Part shown: piece after piece, positions 5,054 through 24,891 of the stretch
How the letters are laid out: every line of letters starts with the position of its first letter
Position numbering within the stretch: the first letter of the stretch is position 1
From: a virus
Virus record (IMG/VR): IMGVR_UViG_3300033153_004087
Span: 1-24,896 of that record
Length of the DNA stretch: 24,896 nucleotides
Strand: one strand, 5' to 3'
Position numbers and translations under genes: made by a program
Notes under the pieces: generated by a model
The model's input: the letters and a program-made list of their open reading frames with translations, nothing else
What the model was told of the DNA's origin: nothing
Database searches by the model: none

Positions 5054-5485
5054 TTACTTAATCTCCAAAATATACTTATCTTTTTTAAATCTCTTAAAGC
5101 CAGCAGCACTAACAAGAATCTTAGCCGGTTTATTATGCTCTAATATATCAGCAAAGAATCTAGTTACACCTAAGTCTTTTCTAATTTGTTCTACAGTTAA
5201 CTCTAAAGCCTCTAGAGCTATCCTTCCTCTACACTCTTTAAAGAAGTAGAAATCACCATCAAAGTCTATTGTTTCATAAACTTTTAAATCTCTTCCATGC
5301 AGACATCCAAGGACGGTATCCCCTTCCATTGCAACATATACATGGTAACTACCTGAGTTCCATAAAGTTAAAGTCTGAAATAATGTATAGTAATCTCTAT
5401 AGCCTGAGTTGTGATCAGGCGCTGTGTATATATTAGAGAAGAATACTATACCATCTTTATTCGGCTTTAATTTTATTATCTTCAT
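5054..5485 (-). CDS. GNAT-family N-acetyltransferase-like protein
   Basis: A 143-residue protein whose ATG (5485) overlaps the TAA of the preceding gene by one base (TAATG). The layout is that of a GNAT fold: a short N-terminal strand and helix region, a central beta section (YHVYVAMEGDTVLGCLHGR), then ECRGRIALEALELTVEQI, which resembles the acetyl-CoA pyrophosphate-binding loop and helix (R/Q-x-x-G-x-G/A), and a C-terminal HNKPAKILVSAAGFKRF segment like the usual GNAT N-x-x-A-x-x-x-x-x-x-x-G-F motif. The family moves an acetyl group from acetyl-CoA to an amine. The substrate is unknown. Its position inside the internal-virion-protein genes suggests that it modifies a virion protein or is carried by the same late transcript to act on the host. 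Confidence 0.65.
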   Translation of the reverse strand: MKIIKLKPNKDGIVFFSNIYTAPDHNSGYRDYYTLFQTLTLWNSGSYHVYVAMEGDTVLGCLHGRDLKVYETIDFDGDFYFFKECRGRIALEALELTVEQIRKDLGVTRFFADILEHNKPAKILVSAAGFKRFKKDKYILEIK

Positions 5486-6162
5486 TAAAATCCTGTCAAT
5501 GGGTTATTCGCTAAGAAGCTGGCTTGATTTGGGGCTAAAGAAATATTCTGCCCCGCTTGGAAGTTAGGGCCTTGTGCACCACCACCAAAAGAACTTAATA
5601 ACATACCAGCACCAGCACCGAGTGCACCACCTAATGCACCTAAGCCTTGACCACCTTGCTCTTGTTGAGGTTGAACTATAGTGGGAGTACCTGCAGTTGT
5701 AGCTTGAGGAGCTTGAGATAATAATGCGCTTACGCCAGCTTGCCTTACACCTTGCTCTTGCTGTGTAGCTCTATTGCGCTGTAGTTGAGCTTGATTAGCC
5801 TGTTGCATTGCCGCTAATCTTGCACCACTAAATGCTTGCTCTTGAGCTTGAGCACCTAACTCTTGTACTTTAGTTTGAGCTGCTTGCTGAACATCTTCAC
5901 CAAAACCTCGCTGCAATAACTGTTGAGCCAACATATTATTCTGAGGGTCTGTGCTAAACATTCCGTCAAGCCTATCAGTAAGATCGCCAAGTGTAGCAAA
6001 TTCTTTATTCAATTCAAACTTAGCTGTAGCCTGATGATATTCTTGAAGATTAGGTACAGTAAAATCCTGATAGAATTGCTCTCTAGCTTTAAGGATCTTT
6101 GTCTGCTCCTTAGATAACTCAGTTTCAATTACTTCAGTCTTTGTTTTCTTTTCTTTACCCAC
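5485..6162 (-). CDS. Gln/Gly-rich internal virion protein, paralogue 2
   Basis: A 225-residue protein overlapping the end of the upstream paralogue by 8 bases. It starts with a basic stretch, then SKEQTKILKAREQFYQDF (about residues 17-34), a helical Gln/Ala-rich middle (residues 75-145), LLSQAPQATTAG, and a Gly/Ala-rich tail that could insert in membranes. The neighbouring gene at 6155-6811 has the same order of blocks, so the pair arose by duplication. Such small Gln-rich proteins with a Gly-rich hydrophobic end sit beside the large ejection proteins in podoviruses (T7 gp14-like or P22 gp7-like role: first protein out of the virion, forming a channel in the outer membrane). The role is inferred from context and composition. 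Confidence 0.65.
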   Translation of the reverse strand: MGKEKKTKTEVIETELSKEQTKILKAREQFYQDFTVPNLQEYHQATAKFELNKEFATLGDLTDRLDGMFSTDPQNNMLAQQLLQRGFGEDVQQAAQTKVQELGAQAQEQAFSGARLAAMQQANQAQLQRNRATQQEQGVRQAGVSALLSQAPQATTAGTPTIVQPQQEQGGQGLGALGGALGAGAGMLLSSFGGGAQGPNFQAGQNISLAPNQASFLANNPLTGF

Positions 6163-6811
6163 CGAACATTCCTCCTAATCCACTACCAAGTTGGGATCCA
6201 ATGCCACCGCCAACGCCCGGCGCAATAAAACTACCAGCTAATCCACCAAGGGCACCACCAAGGGCACCACCAAACCCACCACCACCGCCTTCTTGCGTCT
6301 GAACTACCTGTTGAGGCGCAGCAGTTGTTGGTCTTGGAGCTAATGATAACAATTGACCTAAAGCACTACCTTGCATTTGTTGCTCTGATAATGCAGCTTG
6401 ATTTAAATTCTGTATTCTTTGATCTTGGGCTTGAGCCTCTTGGATTAGCGCTTGTCCAGCAGCACCCCTCAAGCTCTCTCTACGTCCAGCCTCTAACTGA
6501 GCTAATGAACTAGCCTCAATACCAGATCCTTCCAACCCTCTCTGAGCTAAGCCAATAGACATCTGCTCTCTCTGAAGATTAGCGACATCACCGATCTGCG
6601 CAGCCTGACCTCTAAATAGATCCGTGAAAGTGGGTGCTTCAAAGTCCCTACCGAGCTCTATTTGTTTAGTCTGCTCAAAGAAATTCTCTAATGCTGGTTG
6701 TCCGAAGTCCTGAAAGAACTGCTCTCTGGATCTAAGAATTTTTAATTGCTCTCTAGAAAGAGGTGTTTCAACAACCTCAGGACTAGAGCTTCCTCCTCCT
6801 GATTTACCCAT
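6155..6811 (-). CDS. Gln/Gly-rich internal virion protein, paralogue 1
   Basis: A 218-residue protein that overlaps the holin-like gene upstream by 8 bases and the paralogue downstream by 8 bases. It has a Gly/Ser start, then SREQLKILRSREQFFQDF (about residues 18-35) closely matching the paralogue, a Gln/Ala/Glu helix, LLSLAPRPTTAA, and a glycine-dominated C-terminus (GGGGGFGGALGGALGG and further repeats). The C-terminus resembles glycine-zipper membrane segments. The likely role is a small ejection protein that helps form the DNA passage through the cell envelope. Glycine-zipper and coiled-coil features are visible; the function is inferred. Confidence 0.65.
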   Translation of the reverse strand: MGKSGGGSSSPEVVETPLSREQLKILRSREQFFQDFGQPALENFFEQTKQIELGRDFEAPTFTDLFRGQAAQIGDVANLQREQMSIGLAQRGLEGSGIEASSLAQLEAGRRESLRGAAGQALIQEAQAQDQRIQNLNQAALSEQQMQGSALGQLLSLAPRPTTAAPQQVVQTQEGGGGGFGGALGGALGGLAGSFIAPGVGGGIGSQLGSGLGGMFGG

Positions 6812-8657: not shown

Positions 8658-9605
8658 TTATAGAGAGTAGCGTATACACCACATTACATTAACATTTCTT
8701 GGCCTAGATTCACTGCCACCTTTAAGGTCAGTTGAGCTTAATCCTGTGTTCTGAACATAGTTTTCCCTATCATTCAAACTGTGAGAAGTTCCTCTTGTAA
8801 ACTCTGCTAAATCTCTTGGGCCTTGATTAAATCCTGTTTCATGGAAGTGGCTCTTTATCTCATCTGCCTGCTTTGTACCAATATTATCCCCAGTAGTTAC
8901 GCCATCGCCGCGGTCTGTACGAGATCCAGCATCAGGATCATTCCCTGCTCCATGATCCCATCCACGAAGGAATTCACCTCTATAGTCAGGAAGATTAAAG
9001 GTAGTTGATCCATCACCTTCCCCGTATTGAGTTCCAATTAATCCAAATAAATCAGAGTAGGTAACTCTAGATACAGCGAAACCATTACATTCAAGGAAGC
9101 CTGTAGGAGGTGCATTTGTAGGAAATCCTATAATAGTACCAACAGGAAGGATGTTTCCAATATTGGTTATGGCATCTATTTGATCCTGAGTTAATCCTAC
9201 TATCTGTTGTAATTTAGTCCTCTCAGAATCTGTTATGATATTGCCTGAGCCAGTATCTATAATCCTATTAAGTTTATCTCTTTCCTGCTCAGTGATTATT
9301 GCTCCAGACCCAAAAGAGCCAATACCATCTAATATATCTTGGTTCTCAAACTTATGAATACTTGCTAAGCTAGCGCATATTTGAGTTATAGCAGCATCTA
9401 CTTCCTCTGCATTCATTTGCACTTGATCATAAAGCTCAAGAGTTCTTGTCGCTAGAAGTAAAGGTAGATGTGAAGCATTTAGCCCTCTAATATTTTGGAA
9501 TGCACCTATAGAAGTCTTCCTTGCAAAAGAAGCATCTACACCACCAGTATCAAAAAACGTATCTTCAAAACCAATTAGATCTTTACTGTATGTATTATCT
9601 GCCAT
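8658..9605 (-). CDS. Short tail fibre with collar domain
   Basis: A 315-residue protein. Residues 1-55 match the N-terminus of the fibre at 10052-11338 (ADNTYSKDLIGFED versus PDNTYEKDLAGVED, then NIRGLNASHLP versus SITKVNARHIP), so both dock to the same virion site. Residues 100-137 hold two copies of a GSG-IIT-ER-KL repeat, a likely fibrous shaft. Residues 152-215 are a phage tail collar domain (LPVGTIIGFP, PPTGFLECNG, TTFNLPDYRGEFLRGWD). The end RPRNVNVMWCIRYSL is the conserved collar-family C-terminus. The segment between (GDNIGTKQADEIKSHFHETG) is the usual tip with a metal-binding HxH. It probably recognises the host surface. It starts at ATG 9605, overlapping the stop of the preceding gene. 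Confidence 0.85.
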   Translation of the reverse strand: MADNTYSKDLIGFEDTFFDTGGVDASFARKTSIGAFQNIRGLNASHLPLLLATRTLELYDQVQMNAEEVDAAITQICASLASIHKFENQDILDGIGSFGSGAIITEQERDKLNRIIDTGSGNIITDSERTKLQQIVGLTQDQIDAITNIGNILPVGTIIGFPTNAPPTGFLECNGFAVSRVTYSDLFGLIGTQYGEGDGSTTFNLPDYRGEFLRGWDHGAGNDPDAGSRTDRGDGVTTGDNIGTKQADEIKSHFHETGFNQGPRDLAEFTRGTSHSLNDRENYVQNTGLSSTDLKGGSESRPRNVNVMWCIRYSL

Positions 9606-10051: not shown

Positions 10052-11338
10052 TTATAATCTTGAGTCAGCTTCCCAATGGGCTCTAAGAACGACATTCTCA
10101 CCAACAGCAACAGAGGGTGAGAATCTTGCCGCTGCAGAAGAGTTTCCAATAACTGTTAGATCACCCGGCCTATCAACCCCAGCACCTACATCTCTTATAT
10201 GCCCACTAGCTCCTGAGTCTGGTGAATATATTGTCATCGTTGGTATCGATATCATTCTATCTTTAAATGAAAAAGTTTGCGCAGCTTGAGTGGATAGTGC
10301 TGTAACTGATAGCCATTGCTGAGCACCTGATGTTGCTGCCCCACCCGGAAGAGTTCCGTCTGAGTAAGAGTTTTGATAGTATGGATTAATCCTTGCTCTT
10401 TCACCAGTATCAACAAGCCAAGATCCATTAAATGGACTGGATCCTTGGACACACGATATATTAGCATAGTCAACCGTAGCTGATACTCCACTAGGCAGAA
10501 ATATACCTATTTGAATAAAATCATCTGAACCTATCGTCTTACCAGACACACTTGGTACATCTATAGATACAGTAAATTCCTGCCAAGATGTAGTTACATT
10601 AAAGGTATCAGAGTTAACTGAAACCGCAGAGGATCCGCCAGGTCCAAAATCTTGATGCCATTGAACGAAGAAATTATTTATGATATTGTTAGCTTTTAAA
10701 AAAATACTAAATGTAACCTTCTCACCAGAAAATGTAGTTGAGTTTTTTAATCTAAATAGTAATCCAGCACTTCCTGTTGGTGATGTGTAGGTGGAACGAT
10801 GAAAGTATTTTGGGTTGCCGGGAACATCTGATTGCCCTACTGCAAAAGATTCTCTAGTCGCACTAAAAGTCCCTCCTGAAGAATCAACTCTTGCCATTGT
10901 TGAAGTGTAACCATCAGTCACAAATGGGCCAGATCCAAAATCCCAGTGATTAAATTGACCATCTATAATGAGATTATTGCCTGCTTTAGTTATAATATCA
11001 TCAAGTGAAACACCTGCATCTTTTAGCTTTCTTGTATTACCGTCTGCTAATACTAGGTTATCACTAACGAATGCGTCATCTGCAGTAACTAGTGGATCTT
11101 CACTCTGAGCTCCATCTACATTAAGAACTGCAATTATCTTAGACAAGAAATCTTCTACACTTTCTGCACCAAGGAATGTCAATGCATTAGTTACAGGTAT
11201 ATGCCTAGCATTAACTTTAGTAATACTCTGACTACCACCTGTAGAAGTACCTCTATTAAATTGCTCATTATTTCGATTAGTATCAAAGGATATATCTTCA
11301 ACACCAGCTAAATCTTTTTCATAAGTATTATCAGGCAT
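10052..11338 (-). CDS. Tail fibre / receptor-binding protein with carbohydrate-binding-like domain
   Basis: A 428-residue protein. An upstream GTG at 11344 is in frame, but ATG 11338 is chosen because it has AGAGG five bases upstream and gives MPDNTYEKDL, matching the start MADNTYSKDL of the second fibre. Residues 1-75 are the shared anchor region. From about residue 115 the pattern NLIIDGQFNHWDFG...YTSTMARVD is typical of fibre domains with a galactose-binding-like (CBM4/9-type) jelly roll, followed by beta strands to about 310 (SWQEFTVSIDVP). The C-terminus has further beta strands and ends VVLRAHWEADSRL. It lacks a collar domain. It likely binds a surface sugar of the host. The gene overlaps the end of the adaptor gene by 8 bases. 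Confidence 0.7.
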   Translation of the reverse strand: MPDNTYEKDLAGVEDISFDTNRNNEQFNRGTSTGGSQSITKVNARHIPVTNALTFLGAESVEDFLSKIIAVLNVDGAQSEDPLVTADDAFVSDNLVLADGNTRKLKDAGVSLDDIITKAGNNLIIDGQFNHWDFGSGPFVTDGYTSTMARVDSSGGTFSATRESFAVGQSDVPGNPKYFHRSTYTSPTGSAGLLFRLKNSTTFSGEKVTFSIFLKANNIINNFFVQWHQDFGPGGSSAVSVNSDTFNVTTSWQEFTVSIDVPSVSGKTIGSDDFIQIGIFLPSGVSATVDYANISCVQGSSPFNGSWLVDTGERARINPYYQNSYSDGTLPGGAATSGAQQWLSVTALSTQAAQTFSFKDRMISIPTMTIYSPDSGASGHIRDVGAGVDRPGDLTVIGNSSAAARFSPSVAVGENVVLRAHWEADSRL

Positions 11339-12215
11339 AGACACCTCTCACTGACATTGCGGCGTTTTGCCCAGAAGCTACTCTGCCTATTTCTCTATTA
11401 ACTCTCTCTTGGTATTTACTCTCATACAAAAGAGAAGATTGCAAATTTTGTTGCGGGCCGTCTTTCTCATAGCACTTATGGAGGGTGTAGTTATATAATG
11501 CTTGATCATCATCTATCTCAAGCTTACCTACTCTTGGATATCTAGAATACCAAACCCTAAACTTTTTATCTGTGCTTAATACTGCAGTAACGGCACCTTC
11601 TTCATAGTTAAATGTATTAGTATCTTCCCCATCATCATTTAATAAAGTGGAATCTATAGTTACACCAAGCTCTGAATCAAAATCTTCAGGCGTAGCATTA
11701 GCAATATATAATGGGTCAGACTCATCATATACCTGTACTCCATCTACTACTAAGGGTTCTATATTAACCTCATCCACAGATATAACTGCACCAAGCTCAC
11801 CAGTGAAATCTGTATACTCTGATAAGACTTGATTTGTAGGTATAGGAAAGAATCTTAATTGTCTCTGTCCATCGAGGTCTTGATAATAATGAGTGACGCT
11901 ACCTCTGGAGATTCGGTATCTAGGGCCAAACTCTCTAAGGATATCTCTTGAAGTAGTCTTCTGAATAACACATCCGTCATGTCTCTCAATGCGATCTACA
12001 TTAAAACAATCATCTGGAAGTGTATATATTTCTGTATTCTCACGTGTTGTAAGGGGGCCTTCAGACCGGAGAATAAAAGTCTTCTCACAGTATTCCCGCT
12101 GGCCCTCATTGATATAATCAATAAGCTCATCTTTAGACCAGTAGATGAAATTTACATCACCCGTTACTCTTGTGACTTTGCCTATGACTTTATCAAATTC
12201 ATGTGGTAGTGCCAT
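11331..12215 (-). CDS. Head-to-tail adaptor (tail tubular protein A / P22 gp4-like)
   Basis: A 294-residue protein. The N-terminus is helical with LIDYINEGQREYCEKT (about residues 31-46), the usual helix pattern of podovirus adaptors, followed by a beta-rich centre (TEIYTLPDDCFNVDRIE, LRFFPIPTNQ) and a C-terminal helix bundle (LYNYTLHKCYEKDGPQQNLQSSLLYESKYQERVNREI). Adaptors of this class form a dodecameric ring under the portal and receive the nozzle. An acidic insert around residues 140-210 looks variable. The gene order portal, scaffold, capsid, small capsid protein, adaptor is standard. It ends in TGA inside the start of the first fibre gene. Confidence 0.65.
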   Translation of the reverse strand: MALPHEFDKVIGKVTRVTGDVNFIYWSKDELIDYINEGQREYCEKTFILRSEGPLTTRENTEIYTLPDDCFNVDRIERHDGCVIQKTTSRDILREFGPRYRISRGSVTHYYQDLDGQRQLRFFPIPTNQVLSEYTDFTGELGAVISVDEVNIEPLVVDGVQVYDESDPLYIANATPEDFDSELGVTIDSTLLNDDGEDTNTFNYEEGAVTAVLSTDKKFRVWYSRYPRVGKLEIDDDQALYNYTLHKCYEKDGPQQNLQSSLLYESKYQERVNREIGRVASGQNAAMSVRGVYA

Positions 12216-16475: not shown

Positions 16476-16529
16476 TTCAATGTCTGTCAAGTTTAAAATT
16501 TAATATAATTAAGGATTTAAGGTGAGTGG

Positions 16530-19466: not shown

Positions 19467-21200
19467 ATGCTACAGGTCGGGCCGCATGTTCGGCCCAATA
19501 GCAACAACTTTGTTACGGTTATTGGTGGTGTACCTCTATTCATACTCTCCTATAACACAGAGCTAAGTGACGGAACCTCCTCGCCATCCCTAAATGCAGT
19601 TCTACCTATGACCGCTGGGCCTGAGGTGGATTGGACTGAGGTGATTAATAATCTTAATAGTCATACCTACGCATCGGGGGACACTTATCAGATAACTATC
19701 GATAATACAAATGCGGATTTTAGGTTCGACAACATTGGTGATAAGATCAAGATCATTGATGTTAGTAAATGCAATGGATTGAACATCACTAACAACTCTG
19801 TGTTTAGAGGATGCGGCAATTTACAATGGTCGGCAACTGATGCCCCTAACATAGTAACCACTAACCTAGACAGTATATTCTTAGGTTGTGGGTCGATGGA
19901 TGGCGATCTCAGTAAGTGGGATGTCAGCAACGCTACTCGCATGGTGAACATGTTCTTCTCTGCCTCATCCTTTACTGGCGGAGGTATAGAGAATTGGAAT
20001 GTAGGTAACTGCGAAAACTTTTTTCAAATGTTCTTTGGTGCGAACTCTTTTAACGCTGCCGAAATAGGTGTTTGGGATATGTCCAGCGCGACCAATATAG
20101 GCGGTATGTTTAGAATTAACAGCGGTTTTAATAAGTACATAGGTGATTGGGTCGTCGATAATGTCACAAACATGAGTCACTTATTTGCTGGCGCTTCTTC
20201 ATTTAATCAAGATATTAGCGGGTGGGACGTGCGGAATAATGTAGTGTTCCACGCTATGCTTGCAAATGCCAATAGTTTTAATCACGATCTAAGCCCTTGG
20301 AGATTCGATTCAGCAAATGATGTATCTTGGATGTTTACAGGAAATCCCGTATTTAATAATGGCGTGGGTGATGGTCAGTTTCCATTAGCCACCAATTTTA
20401 GCAACATGTTTGCTAGTGCGTCAGTCTTCAATTTTGACATAAGCGGCTGGAACACCCCCAACGCCACAAATATGGCTACCATGTTTAAGAACGCTACTTC
20501 ATTCAACAGGAATCTTACTTCTTGGGATGTCGCAAACGTCACAAACATGACTGAAATGTTTTCTGGTGCGAACGGGTTCAACGGGACTATCAACGGCTGG
20601 ACAACAACCTCACTAACTGATATGACTTTTATGTTCCTTAATGCGTGGGCATTCAATCAAGATGTTGATAACTGGGATGTAAGTGGTGTCTCTGATATGT
20701 CAGCTGTATTCGCGGGGGCCATAGGATTCGATAAAAGTGTTAATGCTTGGGATGTAAGCAATGTCACCTTATTCAATAACATGTTTGATTCAGCCACTGT
20801 ATATAATCAGGCGATGAACTCTTGGGTTACTACTAGTGCCACGAACATGACGGAAATGTTTAAAGATTGTGGTGCCTTCAACCAGGACATTAGTAGTTGG
20901 AATGTAAGTAGTGTTACTGATATGTCTGGCATGTTCTTACGGGCAACGGCATTTGATCAAGATTTAACAGGCTGGAATGTTGGTGCTGTCACTTATATGG
21001 CTAATATGCTTGATAATTCTGGCATGAGTACGGCAAATTATGATAATTTCCTTGTCATGTGTAACGCAACTTCCTCTCAAGCCAATGTTGTTGTTGGTGC
21101 TGCTGGTCTAACTTATACATCAGCAGGAGCAGGCGGTACAGCTAGGACAGCATTAATTAATGATCATGGCTGGTCATTTGTAGGAGATAGCGGAGTATGA
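19467..21200 (+). CDS. BspA-like (DUF285) leucine-rich-type repeat protein, probable spike or receptor-binding protein
   Basis: A 577-residue protein starting one base after the TAA of the preceding gene. Residues 1-118 are a beta-rich head. Residues about 119-515 hold 16 repeats of about 25 residues with the pattern W-D-V-S-N-V-T-N-M-x-x-M-F-x-x-A-x-x-F-N-x-D-I-S-x (for example SWDVANVTNMTEMF, SSWNVSSVTDMSGMF), the DUF285/BspA repeat. The C-terminal 62 residues (AGLTYTSAGAGGTARTALIN and HGWSF) are the usual end of this class. There is no signal peptide or anchor, so it is likely a virion part and not a secreted adhesin. BspA-type proteins bind surfaces and matrix proteins; here a role in host attachment is inferred. 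An inverted repeat at 19479-19496 sits in its first codons. Confidence 0.75.
   Translation: MLQVGPHVRPNSNNFVTVIGGVPLFILSYNTELSDGTSSPSLNAVLPMTAGPEVDWTEVINNLNSHTYASGDTYQITIDNTNADFRFDNIGDKIKIIDVSKCNGLNITNNSVFRGCGNLQWSATDAPNIVTTNLDSIFLGCGSMDGDLSKWDVSNATRMVNMFFSASSFTGGGIENWNVGNCENFFQMFFGANSFNAAEIGVWDMSSATNIGGMFRINSGFNKYIGDWVVDNVTNMSHLFAGASSFNQDISGWDVRNNVVFHAMLANANSFNHDLSPWRFDSANDVSWMFTGNPVFNNGVGDGQFPLATNFSNMFASASVFNFDISGWNTPNATNMATMFKNATSFNRNLTSWDVANVTNMTEMFSGANGFNGTINGWTTTSLTDMTFMFLNAWAFNQDVDNWDVSGVSDMSAVFAGAIGFDKSVNAWDVSNVTLFNNMFDSATVYNQAMNSWVTTSATNMTEMFKDCGAFNQDISSWNVSSVTDMSGMFLRATAFDQDLTGWNVGAVTYMANMLDNSGMSTANYDNFLVMCNATSSQANVVVGAAGLTYTSAGAGGTARTALINDHGWSFVGDSGV
19479..19496 (+). promoter_or_regulatory. 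GC-rich hairpin in the first codons of the BspA-like gene
   Basis: GGGCCG, loop CATGTT, CGGCCC form a perfect 6-bp GC stem starting 12 bases after the ATG, with no T tract. In an AT-rich genome this stands out and may slow translation initiation or pause ribosomes. Confidence 0.5.
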
Positions 21201-22479: not shown

Positions 22480-22788
22480 ATGTTAAAAGCAGAGCTATAC
22501 GCCGCCCTTATTGAAAGGGGATACTCAGACGACCAATTAGAAGGAAAGTTAAAATCTGAACTACAGGATCTATATGATCAACAAGAGATCACAGTTGAGG
22601 CGATACCCGAAGAAGTACCTGTATCTGAAGTCAAGTATATCATCTCCAAGAGAGATAAAGAATACTGGTGCTTGGATGGATCGAAAATCCCTTTCAGAGA
22701 ATTTGATAAGCCAGCTGGATATCTCAAGCCTTTTCCGAAAGCAGGAGATGAAGTAAAGAAGACTGGCGATAAGTGGGTATTAGTATGA
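22480..22788 (+). CDS. Hypothetical protein with SAP/HeH-like N-terminus
   Basis: A 102-residue protein one base after the stop of the phospholipase gene, with AAAGGAG before the ATG. Residues 1-35 (KAELYAALIERGYSDDQLEGKLKSELQDLYD) form two helices joined by a turn, like short SAP/HeH domains found in phage proteins. Then comes an acidic Pro/Val linker (EAIPEEVPVSEV) and a C-terminal beta part with YWCLDGSKIPFREFDKPAGYLKPFPKAGD. Operon position links it to the lipoprotein and phospholipase genes. Function unknown. Confidence 0.6.
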   Translation: MLKAELYAALIERGYSDDQLEGKLKSELQDLYDQQEITVEAIPEEVPVSEVKYIISKRDKEYWCLDGSKIPFREFDKPAGYLKPFPKAGDEVKKTGDKWVLV

Positions 22789-22997
22789 TCAATACAAAGA
22801 TTAAGGCTCTATTGATAATATCAATGATTGGCTCGGGCTGCATGACCTACAAGAAAGTATCGAACCATTATACCGCAAATCTTGGATCTAAGATAGAAGT
22901 AAAAGAGAGCCCAAATAAAGTATCTGGCTCTGATGCGCAAGATTCCTTAAATGGAAACGATGTAAAGCCTGAGGTATCCTTGCCAATGTTGCCTTGA
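22785..22997 (+). CDS. Small lipoprotein, possible outer-membrane spanin
   Basis: A 70-residue protein. An in-frame GTG at 22773 exists, but ATG 22785 is chosen: it overlaps the TGA of the preceding gene (ATGA) and opens a clean signal peptide MINTKIKALLIISMIGSGC. Cys19 would be the lipidated residue, although Gly at -3 is unusual for a lipobox. The mature part is short, hydrophilic and ends with Pro residues (KPEVSLPMLP). Phage lipoproteins of this size at the end of a late operon are often o-spanins (Rz1-like), which help disrupt the outer membrane. No i-spanin is seen directly next to it. The -35 box of the downstream RNA promoter lies in its last codons. Confidence 0.6.
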   Translation: MINTKIKALLIISMIGSGCMTYKKVSNHYTANLGSKIEVKESPNKVSGSDAQDSLNGNDVKPEVSLPMLP

Positions 22998-23008
22998 GGT
23001 TATATAAT
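22980..23008 (+). promoter_or_regulatory. Near-consensus sigma70 promoter of a small RNA
   Basis: TTGCCA (22980-22985), exactly 17 bp, TATAAT (23003-23008). Eleven of twelve bases match consensus. It lies across the end of the lipoprotein gene, and no gene follows on this strand before the terminator at 23062-23094. Confidence 0.6.
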
Positions 23009-23014
23009 AAGTAA

Positions 23015-23096
23015 TGAATTAGCGGATTATCCCTTTCTCCCTTGTTCATTTACTCCCTTGGCCCGGTGGTTACTCCCTTTTCCACCGGGTTTTTCT
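23015..23096 (+). ncRNA. Candidate small RNA of about 80 nt with three CUCCCUU motifs
   Basis: The segment is bounded by a near-consensus promoter (start predicted near 23015) and a strong intrinsic terminator. It has no reading frame of note (ATG-AAT-TAG only). CTCCCTT occurs at 23037-23043, 23053-23059 and 23073-23079, the last inside the terminator loop. The second and third are part of an identical TTACTCCCTT. Such C-rich unpaired motifs are used by several bacterial small RNAs to bind Shine-Dalgarno sequences. Its target is proposed to be the leftward small-gene operon. Prediction only. Confidence 0.5.
23062..23094 (+). terminator. Strong intrinsic terminator of the rightward unit and small RNA
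   Basis: CCCGGTGG (23062-23069) and CCACCGGG (23082-23089) form a perfect 8-bp GC-rich stem with a 12-base loop, followed by TTTTTCTTT. Confidence 0.9.
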
Positions 23097-23102
23097 TTGC
23101 AC

Positions 23103-23133
23103 AAAAAAGCCCCAACTGACTAGGCTGGGGCTT
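23103..23133 (-). terminator. Intrinsic terminator of the leftward small-gene operon
   Basis: On the minus strand AAGCCCCA and TGGGGCTT form an 8-bp stem (23126-23133 and 23107-23114) with an 11-base loop, followed by a run of T (complement of A 23103-23108). It lies back to back with the rightward terminator. Confidence 0.9.
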
Positions 23134-23642: not shown

Positions 23643-23754
23643 ACTCCTTTAGTAAATCCATAACAGATCCTGCAAATTGATATGGATCAATCTGCTCCTC
23701 TGCCTCTTGCTTTAACTCTCTAACAAAAGACTCAACATCTATCTTAGTAATCAT
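23626..23754 (-). CDS. 42-residue hypothetical protein
   Basis: A reading frame that starts at ATG 23754, overlapping the TGA of the upstream gene (ATGA), with GAGGG six bases before it. The product is acidic and helical (DVESFVRELKQEAEEQID, then FAGSVMDLLKEYEGEI). It fills the gap between two annotated-size genes, and it overlaps the next gene by 17 bases. This coupling supports it as real. Function unknown. Confidence 0.6.
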   Translation of the reverse strand: MITKIDVESFVRELKQEAEEQIDPYQFAGSVMDLLKEYEGEI

Positions 23755-24053
23755 TCGTAACCCTCAACTAATTTACTCAACTCTTTTTGTAATGACTTAA
23801 TCCTAGAATCCACCATATCATATAAGGCAGAATCTAAATCACCACACTCATCAGCAAAGATCTCCATAAACCAATTACAGTATCTCTCACTCAAGGAGTT
23901 AATAAACATCTGATTAGTGCTTCCACCATCATCCGCATAAGCATCTACTAACCCAAAGCGATAACCATGAGTTCCATCATAAAGCTTCTTCTGAATAATC
24001 TTAAGCCTATTCAAAGACTCGACTATCTCATTGGCTCTTTCCAACTCTTCCAT
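23751..24053 (-). CDS. Hypothetical helical protein of the small-gene operon
   Basis: An acidic protein of 100 residues if it begins at ATG 24053, or 103 if it begins at ATG 24062. GGGAGGAG lies directly against the first ATG, which leaves the second better spaced. It starts with a helix (MEELERANEIVESLNRLKIIQKKLYDG), then a Gly/Tyr-rich segment (YRFGLVDAYADDGGSTNQMF), and ends with two more helices (FADECGDLDSALYDMVDSRIKSL). It follows the HigA-like gene directly but does not look like a HigB/RelE toxin. Function unknown. Confidence 0.6.
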   Translation of the reverse strand: MEELERANEIVESLNRLKIIQKKLYDGTHGYRFGLVDAYADDGGSTNQMFINSLSERYCNWFMEIFADECGDLDSALYDMVDSRIKSLQKELSKLVEGYE

Positions 24054-24058
24054 ATTAA

Positions 24059-24295
24059 TCATTCATCTCCTCCCAACAAATATAAATCCCATTCACTCTG
24101 CCAAGATAATATATCCTTAGCATCTATCTGTAACGCCTTACCTAAAACCAAAGCAGTCCTAGCAGTAATACGCCTATCCTTATGAATAATCTCAGAGATA
24201 TGAGTCTGGGATAAACCTGTCACCTTACTCAACTTATAAGGATTAACACCACGATCACTTAAGATCTTTAATAAAATAGCTCCGGGTTTAGTCAT
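24059..24295 (-). CDS. HigA-like helix-turn-helix protein (antitoxin or repressor)
   Basis: A 78-residue XRE-type protein. PGAILLKILSDRGVNPYKLSKVTGLSQTHISEIIH is the helix-turn-helix region (about residues 4-38), then RRITARTALVLGKALQI and SWQSEWDLYLL, the very characteristic HigA/VapI ending (RRIT-x-x-TAL ... W-x-x-x-x-x-x-DL). HigA proteins neutralise the HigB ribonuclease and repress their own promoter. Here no HigB-like toxin is next to it. It may regulate the small-gene operon from within, or act against a host toxin. ATG 24295 overlaps the TGA of the upstream 17-residue frame, with AGAGGG eight bases before it. Confidence 0.8.
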   Translation of the reverse strand: MTKPGAILLKILSDRGVNPYKLSKVTGLSQTHISEIIHKDRRITARTALVLGKALQIDAKDILSWQSEWDLYLLGGDE

Positions 24296-24345: not shown

Positions 24346-24451
24346 AAGCATAAACCGCTTCTGAAGCATAAAGATTAGGTGAACTCATAGCGCCACACTC
24401 TTTCATATAAACATCACAATATAACTTCATGCGGTACTCTTCTCTAGTCAT
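24338..24451 (-). CDS. 37-residue small protein
   Basis: ATG 24451 lies inside the stop of the upstream gene (ATGACTAG), with GGGAGG six bases before it. The product starts MTREEYRMKLYCDVYMKECG and is rich in Tyr, Met and Cys. Good ribosome-binding site and overlaps on both sides support translation. No family recognised. Confidence 0.5.
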   Translation of the reverse strand: MTREEYRMKLYCDVYMKECGAMSSPNLYASEAVYAYD

Positions 24452-24830
24452 CACCTACCTCCCATTCCTCAGTATCAATATTAAACACACCATCATGAGC
24501 AGCCCTCTCTAAGAACTCCTCAACCTCATCAAGAGTATATTGCTTATCATCTCTCAAACCATTAAAAAAACGCTCATAAAAAACAAGATCATCCATCTTA
24601 CCAAATACATAATCAGAACCATAAGAAAAATCAGAAAGACATATATGGACATCCTTTACCTGATCCTCCCTAAATAAAGGACAACGACTCTTCTCACGCC
24701 AACGAAGACGCCAACGAAGATGCAAAGGAAACTTATAAGTAACCCCATTAATATTGAACTCTTGACGACAATCATCATTAGCAAACTTACCCTCTCTCAA
24801 CATCCAATTGCGAGACTCTATATACTGCAT
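24444..24830 (-). CDS. First gene of the small-gene operon, hypothetical
   Basis: A 128-residue protein if it starts at ATG 24830. The frame is open to a GTG at 24836, but AAAGGAG is only three bases from that GTG and nine from the ATG, so the ATG is preferred. It has a Trp/Arg-rich centre (YKFPLHLRWRLRWREKSRCP), an aromatic section (SDFSYGSDYVFGKMDDLVFYERFFNG) and an acidic C-terminal helix (LDEVEEFLERAAHDG). It ends in TAG. Being the first gene behind a strong promoter suggests an early host-takeover protein, but nothing in the sequence gives its action. Confidence 0.65.
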   Translation of the reverse strand: MQYIESRNWMLREGKFANDDCRQEFNINGVTYKFPLHLRWRLRWREKSRCPLFREDQVKDVHICLSDFSYGSDYVFGKMDDLVFYERFFNGLRDDKQYTLDEVEEFLERAAHDGVFNIDTEEWEVGDD

Positions 24831-24862
24831 AATCACTTACTCCTTTGTTAGATTACATATAT

Positions 24863-24891
24863 ATACTACTGCGAAACAATACTATTGGCAA
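24863..24891 (-). promoter_or_regulatory. Sigma70-type promoter of the leftward small-gene operon, with palindrome
   Basis: On the minus strand TTGCCA (24886-24891), 17 bp, TAGTAT (24863-24868), with start near 24856. The -35 equals that of the small RNA promoter at 22980. The 11-bp palindrome CAATACTATTG (24877-24887) touches the -35 and could be an operator. Confidence 0.55.

Follow-up and report, generated by a model that had tools for sequence, protein, structure and literature searches.

The window analysed here, a 24.9-kb stretch of DNA, is the record of an uncultured virus with matches to portal, major head protein and terminase. The nearest named phages share only ~25–32% identity with it, in terminase, head and portal proteins. 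Relatives were also looked for among genome contigs, as prophages that would identify the host, and none was found. Some features of the wider window were recorded in passing. On the minus strand, the adjacent proteins encoded at 5485–6162 and 6155–6811 look like tandem paralogues with a common start (VIETELSKEQTKILKAREQFYQDF / VVETPLSREQLKILRSREQFFQDF), and two probable tail proteins (8658–9605 and 10052–11344, minus strand) have a related N-terminal part, MxxNTYxKDLxG..., with cross-matches between the pair visible in a relative. The 577-aa protein encoded at 19467–21200 on the plus strand harbors repeats like 'MFxxAxxFNxDIxxWDVSNVTNM', is similar by eye to bacterial surface-repeat proteins and is possibly a host-binding protein.

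Near the right end, a rightward operon finishes at 22997 and a converging leftward operon finishes at a terminator found by the terminator scan (23107–23133, minus strand, read from 23133 to 23107). The final gene of the rightward operon (22785–22997, plus strand) encodes a small protein with a lipobox-like N-terminus, for which a search for a family match found none. The segment between the two operons had been read in a first-pass annotation as a free-standing small regulatory RNA, with a promoter of 11 of 12 consensus bases and 17-bp spacing opening onto about 80 bp without a gene and a strong terminator closing it. The promoter is indeed present at 22980–23008 on the plus strand (-35 TTGCCA at 22980–22985, 17-bp spacer, -10 TATAAT at 23003–23008). 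It overlaps the 3' end of the upstream gene: TTGCCA lies inside coding sequence and the -10 is noncoding. Dinucleotide shuffles of the 24.9-kb window give an expectation of 0.86 promoter matches this good, and two were observed; on its own the promoter score is at chance level. The other 11/12 match, TTGACA-18-TAAAAT at 5499 on the minus strand, is located near the start of gene 5054–5485, within the structural operon.

Downstream of this promoter, the segment of ~84 nt (23013–23096) holds no conserved ORF, in agreement with the gene-free stretch of the first reading, and the 5' end of the RNA is predicted at ~23013–23016. The RNA would begin with a hairpin (23013–23050, plus strand) in which AATGAAT (23013–23019) pairs with GTTCATT (23044–23050) over 7 bp. 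This is followed by a single-stranded linker, TACTCCCTT (23051–23059), our proposed toehold for Shine-Dalgarno sequences, and by an intrinsic terminator (23060–23096) consisting of the stem GGCCCGGTGG / CCACCGGGTT (arms 23060–23069 and 23082–23091), the 12-nt loop TTACTCCCTTTT and a U tract. The terminator hairpin was missed by the simple scan because that scan permits loops of 8 at most. The mRNA of gene 22785–22997 would share this terminator as its end. The fold energy of the RNA beat all 200 shuffled sequences (z -3.7, or -4.6 with the start at 23013). Rfam at gathering scores and ARAGORN gave no match. The three expected CTCCCTT motifs are all present, at 23037 (5' hairpin loop), 23053 (linker) and 23073 (terminator loop), with a single further copy in the window when both strands are counted. 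Two of them sit inside an identical sequence, as had been noticed: TTACTCCCTT occurs in the window at 23050 and 23070 only.

Conservation of the motifs and promoter in relatives had been set beforehand as a test of the small-RNA reading. Promoter, linker motif and terminator are kept, at the same genomic place, in two IMG/VR contigs, G001 (44.1 kb; L003, L006) and G002 (28.9 kb; L004, L005). The -35 and -10 hexamers are identical in both. Predicted folds of all three carriers contain the 5' hairpin AAUGAAU/(G or A)UUCAUU, the linker free of pairing and the terminator. The 14-mer TTCATTTACTCCCT (23045–23058, plus strand), which spans the hairpin 3' arm and linker and is the complement of GGAGTAAATGA translation starts, is unchanged across the window, G001 and G002. 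The three CTCCCTT copies did not fare equally: only the linker copy at 23053 is invariant, and neither the 5'-loop copy nor the one in the terminator loop is preserved whole in the relatives. The G002 terminator loop (L005 5938–5952, plus strand) lacks CTCCCTT and contains GTTCATTT, which is the remaining half of the conserved pairing segment, as though a piece of the linker were repeated in each terminator loop.

Three-way identity varies along the element. The promoter (79%), the 5' arm (87%) and the 3' arm plus linker (88%) stand above the hairpin loop (44%), the terminator loop (42%) and the downstream DNA (19%), which is unrelated among the carriers; the neighbouring genes have 58–72%. 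In the G001 terminator stem, pairing is retained through two double, compensatory changes. Covariation counts in this stem do not exceed the shuffled control with three sequences, so that the covariation is consistent rather than significant. The automatic alignment shifts the G002 terminator stem by one column and produces unpaired cells; folded alone, the G002 stem is intact. Such a mosaic is expected of a structured base-pairing RNA and supports the original reading as a free-standing regulatory RNA, as far as sequence can tell.

This distribution bears on two other explanations. The segment may simply be the 3' untranslated region of the rightward operon together with its terminator; the resemblance to a promoter would then be fortuitous, and there would be no regulatory RNA. 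The chance-level promoter score, the position of TTGCCA in coding sequence and the state of a more distant relative, G005 (terminase identity 72%), which has only a terminator at this site and no sRNA, are all consistent with it. A plain terminator, however, does not account for the conservation of the noncoding -10 and of the 5' hairpin arm, nor for a 14-mer that stays invariant next to a diverged loop and downstream DNA, and we consider this explanation improbable. The other explanation is that the segment encodes a short protein, either on the plus strand or, behind AAGGGAGTAAATG, on the minus strand. In its favor, the minus strand of the window does read as a start site with a 53-aa ORF behind it. 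In the relatives, however, that minus-strand frame meets a stop after six (G002) or nine (G001) codons, and a one-base deletion in G002 puts the plus strand out of frame. These early stops and this frameshift contradict coding on either strand, and we give it almost no weight. We conclude that 23013–23096 is very probably (roughly 0.85) a phage sRNA gene with its own promoter and terminator, located where the rightward operon ends. As a noncoding segment flanked by its own predicted promoter and an intrinsic terminator, and conserved in relatives, it has the layout expected of a free-standing trans-acting base-pairing sRNA.

Pattern scans of IMG/VR, with the linker and with the hairpin or promoter plus linker, recovered only G001 and G002, and the remaining 69 stretches from the hairpin-plus-linker scan were unrelated sequence. 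Seven IMG/VR stretches have two TTACTCCCTT copies, none of them from a known relative. A DNA search of phage records for a related element gave short chance matches only.

The reverse complement of the conserved segment, CCAAGGGAGTAAATGAA, resembles a translation start. Within the complement of the 14-mer is GGAGTAAATGA, which constitutes the Shine-Dalgarno sequence and spacer of four G002 genes. In that genome GGAGTAAATGA, with ATG two bases on, opens two genes in each of two operons, promoter-proximal genes among them. The early-type operon 1 contains an Ocr-like anti-restriction gene (L019:7150-7530, minus strand; phrog_2568, E = 1.5e-10), whose start site bears the 11-mer complementary to the sRNA, and a 57-aa gene preceded by TTGACG-17-TAAGAT. 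In operon 2, the first of the two GGAGTAAATGA genes has a weak helix-turn-helix match. In the window, the first predicted target is the GGAGTAAGTGA start site (24833–24843, minus strand; 11 pairs, one G-U) of the first leftward gene (24444–24830). The promoter-like site TTGCCA-17-TAGTAT (24863–24891, minus strand) is directly upstream of it, and this promoter-plus-start arrangement is also found in G002. The second predicted target, the related site GGGAGGAGATGAATG (24059–24077, minus strand), is at the start of gene 23751–24062 in the same leftward operon. G001 was searched for an exact GGAGTAAATGA match, and none was found outside the sRNA locus itself; it has a site with two wobbles at 2041 and, near 16510, a match that is bulged but strong, CCAAGGGCAGTAAAATGAAC, with an energy of -23.8 kcal/mol; the gene that starts there has a response-regulator match below threshold. 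The genes with matching starts differ from relative to relative. At the level of sequence, the RNA also has the conserved, accessible seed, complementary to predicted targets encoded elsewhere, that characterizes a trans-acting base-pairing sRNA.

To judge this pairing statistically, we summed the energy of the best five pairings at predicted start regions and shuffled the seeds around a fixed CUCC core. Shuffled seeds reached the real energy in 5/1000 cases for the window, 3/1000 for G001 and 13/1000 for G002, results that are not independent because the carriers are related; G005, without the sRNA, gave 355/1000. Ranked alongside 57 other phage fragments, the window came 1st, G001 3rd and G002 10th of 61. 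This ranking is supportive, not conclusive, and is conservative because part of the control loci were picked for related motifs. Net interaction energies, with opening costs deducted, were -9 to -12 kcal/mol. The 11-mer GGAGTAAATGA did not occur in 81 other phage loci (823 kb in total) that were not selected for the motif. The start motif AGGAGTAAATGATTATG was found in 49 IMG/VR stretches and so is not private to this phage group; these 49 contigs include phages not known to carry the sRNA. A crude filter of the 48 other contigs with the start-site motif made no second sRNA-like element evident.

A real sRNA could act mainly on host mRNAs, or on many mRNAs broadly, with its CUCCCUU linker mimicking an anti-Shine-Dalgarno sequence and repressing host genes; the matches at phage start sites would then be a by-product of a common ribosome-binding-site sequence. 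The similar CU-rich linkers of LhrC, RsaE and FsrA pair with Shine-Dalgarno sequences of host genes (PMC4132741), and the linker here is conserved while the matching phage genes vary among relatives. Against this, the match runs past the Shine-Dalgarno core into UAAAUGA, the pairing is better than with core-preserving shuffles in all three carriers but not in G005, and the 11-mer is missing from the 823 kb of other phage DNA. We regard mainly host targets as rather unlikely, and somewhat favor phage early start sites as the main targets of the sRNA.

Known RNAs provide models for how such pairing could act. In Listeria, LhrC carries CUCCC in its first loop, linker and terminator loop and pairs with the Shine-Dalgarno region of lapB (PMC4132741). 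The LhrC family (Rfam RF00616) and the phage RNA alike have a 5' hairpin, a single-stranded stretch and a terminator hairpin; CUCCC occupies all three LhrC positions in the window and only the linker in the relatives. Ranked by bits, LhrC was the top Rfam model for each of the three phage RNAs, with 32.1 bits for the window (E = 0.0015) and 21.7 and 20.5 for the relatives (E = 0.22 and 0.37), all far below the curated cut-off of 110 bits. Unlike LhrC, the phage RNA is phage-encoded and single-copy, and its linker motif alone is invariant among relatives. The resemblance is more likely due to convergence than to common descent. On paper, the phage RNA is predicted to work like LhrC, by binding the Shine-Dalgarno sequences of its targets. 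RsaE of S. aureus and FsrA of B. subtilis also use a C-rich single-stranded UCCC motif to bind the Shine-Dalgarno sequence and block initiation (PMC4132741), but they are bacterial housekeeping sRNAs acting on host metabolism, and no sequence match of the phage RNA to either was found in Rfam. Base pairing is also how the phage-encoded RNAs P22 sar, lambda OOP, VpdS of phage VP882 and lambda PreS regulate genes of the phage or the host; in the case of sar, the effect is to disturb translation initiation of ant (PMC12197685). OOP and sar are cis-antisense to a single overlapping gene (PMC12197685), whereas the RNA described here is encoded elsewhere and fits a motif common to several genes: the strand opposite it has no conserved ORF, and the matching starts are elsewhere in the genome.

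Through its unpaired middle the sRNA has complementarity to the sites where ribosomes land on some of the phage's own early genes, and it therefore probably turns those genes down. The most likely mechanism is that of a trans-acting, LhrC-like RNA that would block translation initiation on phage early mRNAs. The sRNA would be transcribed by host RNA polymerase, and its unpaired linker UACUCCCUU would bind first, as a toehold, to the Shine-Dalgarno sequence of those phage early mRNAs that bear GGAGURARUGA. From there, pairing would extend into UUCAU as the 5' hairpin opens, so that the ribosome-binding site would be covered and initiation blocked. Part of UUCAU is itself paired in this hairpin and must be opened for target pairing, which counts against the model. 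Antisense read-through out of the leftward operon may quench the sRNA. Since transcripts of the rightward operon end at the sRNA terminator, late transcription could add sRNA-containing 3' ends, which could help to shut off early genes; this late timing we only infer. A tentative possibility is that one sRNA from the end of the late operon is a translational off-switch for several early and anti-defence genes sharing GGAGURARUGA.

In phage T4, a protein, RegA, acts at translation initiation to shut off a group of early genes late in infection. The proposed sRNA would accomplish the same late shut-off of early genes with an RNA in place of a protein. If this is true, the off-switch sRNA would be an RNA counterpart to protein repressors of early translation such as RegA. 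The phage RNAs best known for acting on phage genes are each antisense to a single gene that they overlap, and targeted searches of an open-access library found no description of a phage RNA matching a start-site motif common to several of its own genes. A trans-acting RNA for the start-site motif of several early genes, including the Ocr-like one, would show post-transcriptional timing of a gene set, by a type of element that is overlooked when viral metagenomes are annotated by their genes.
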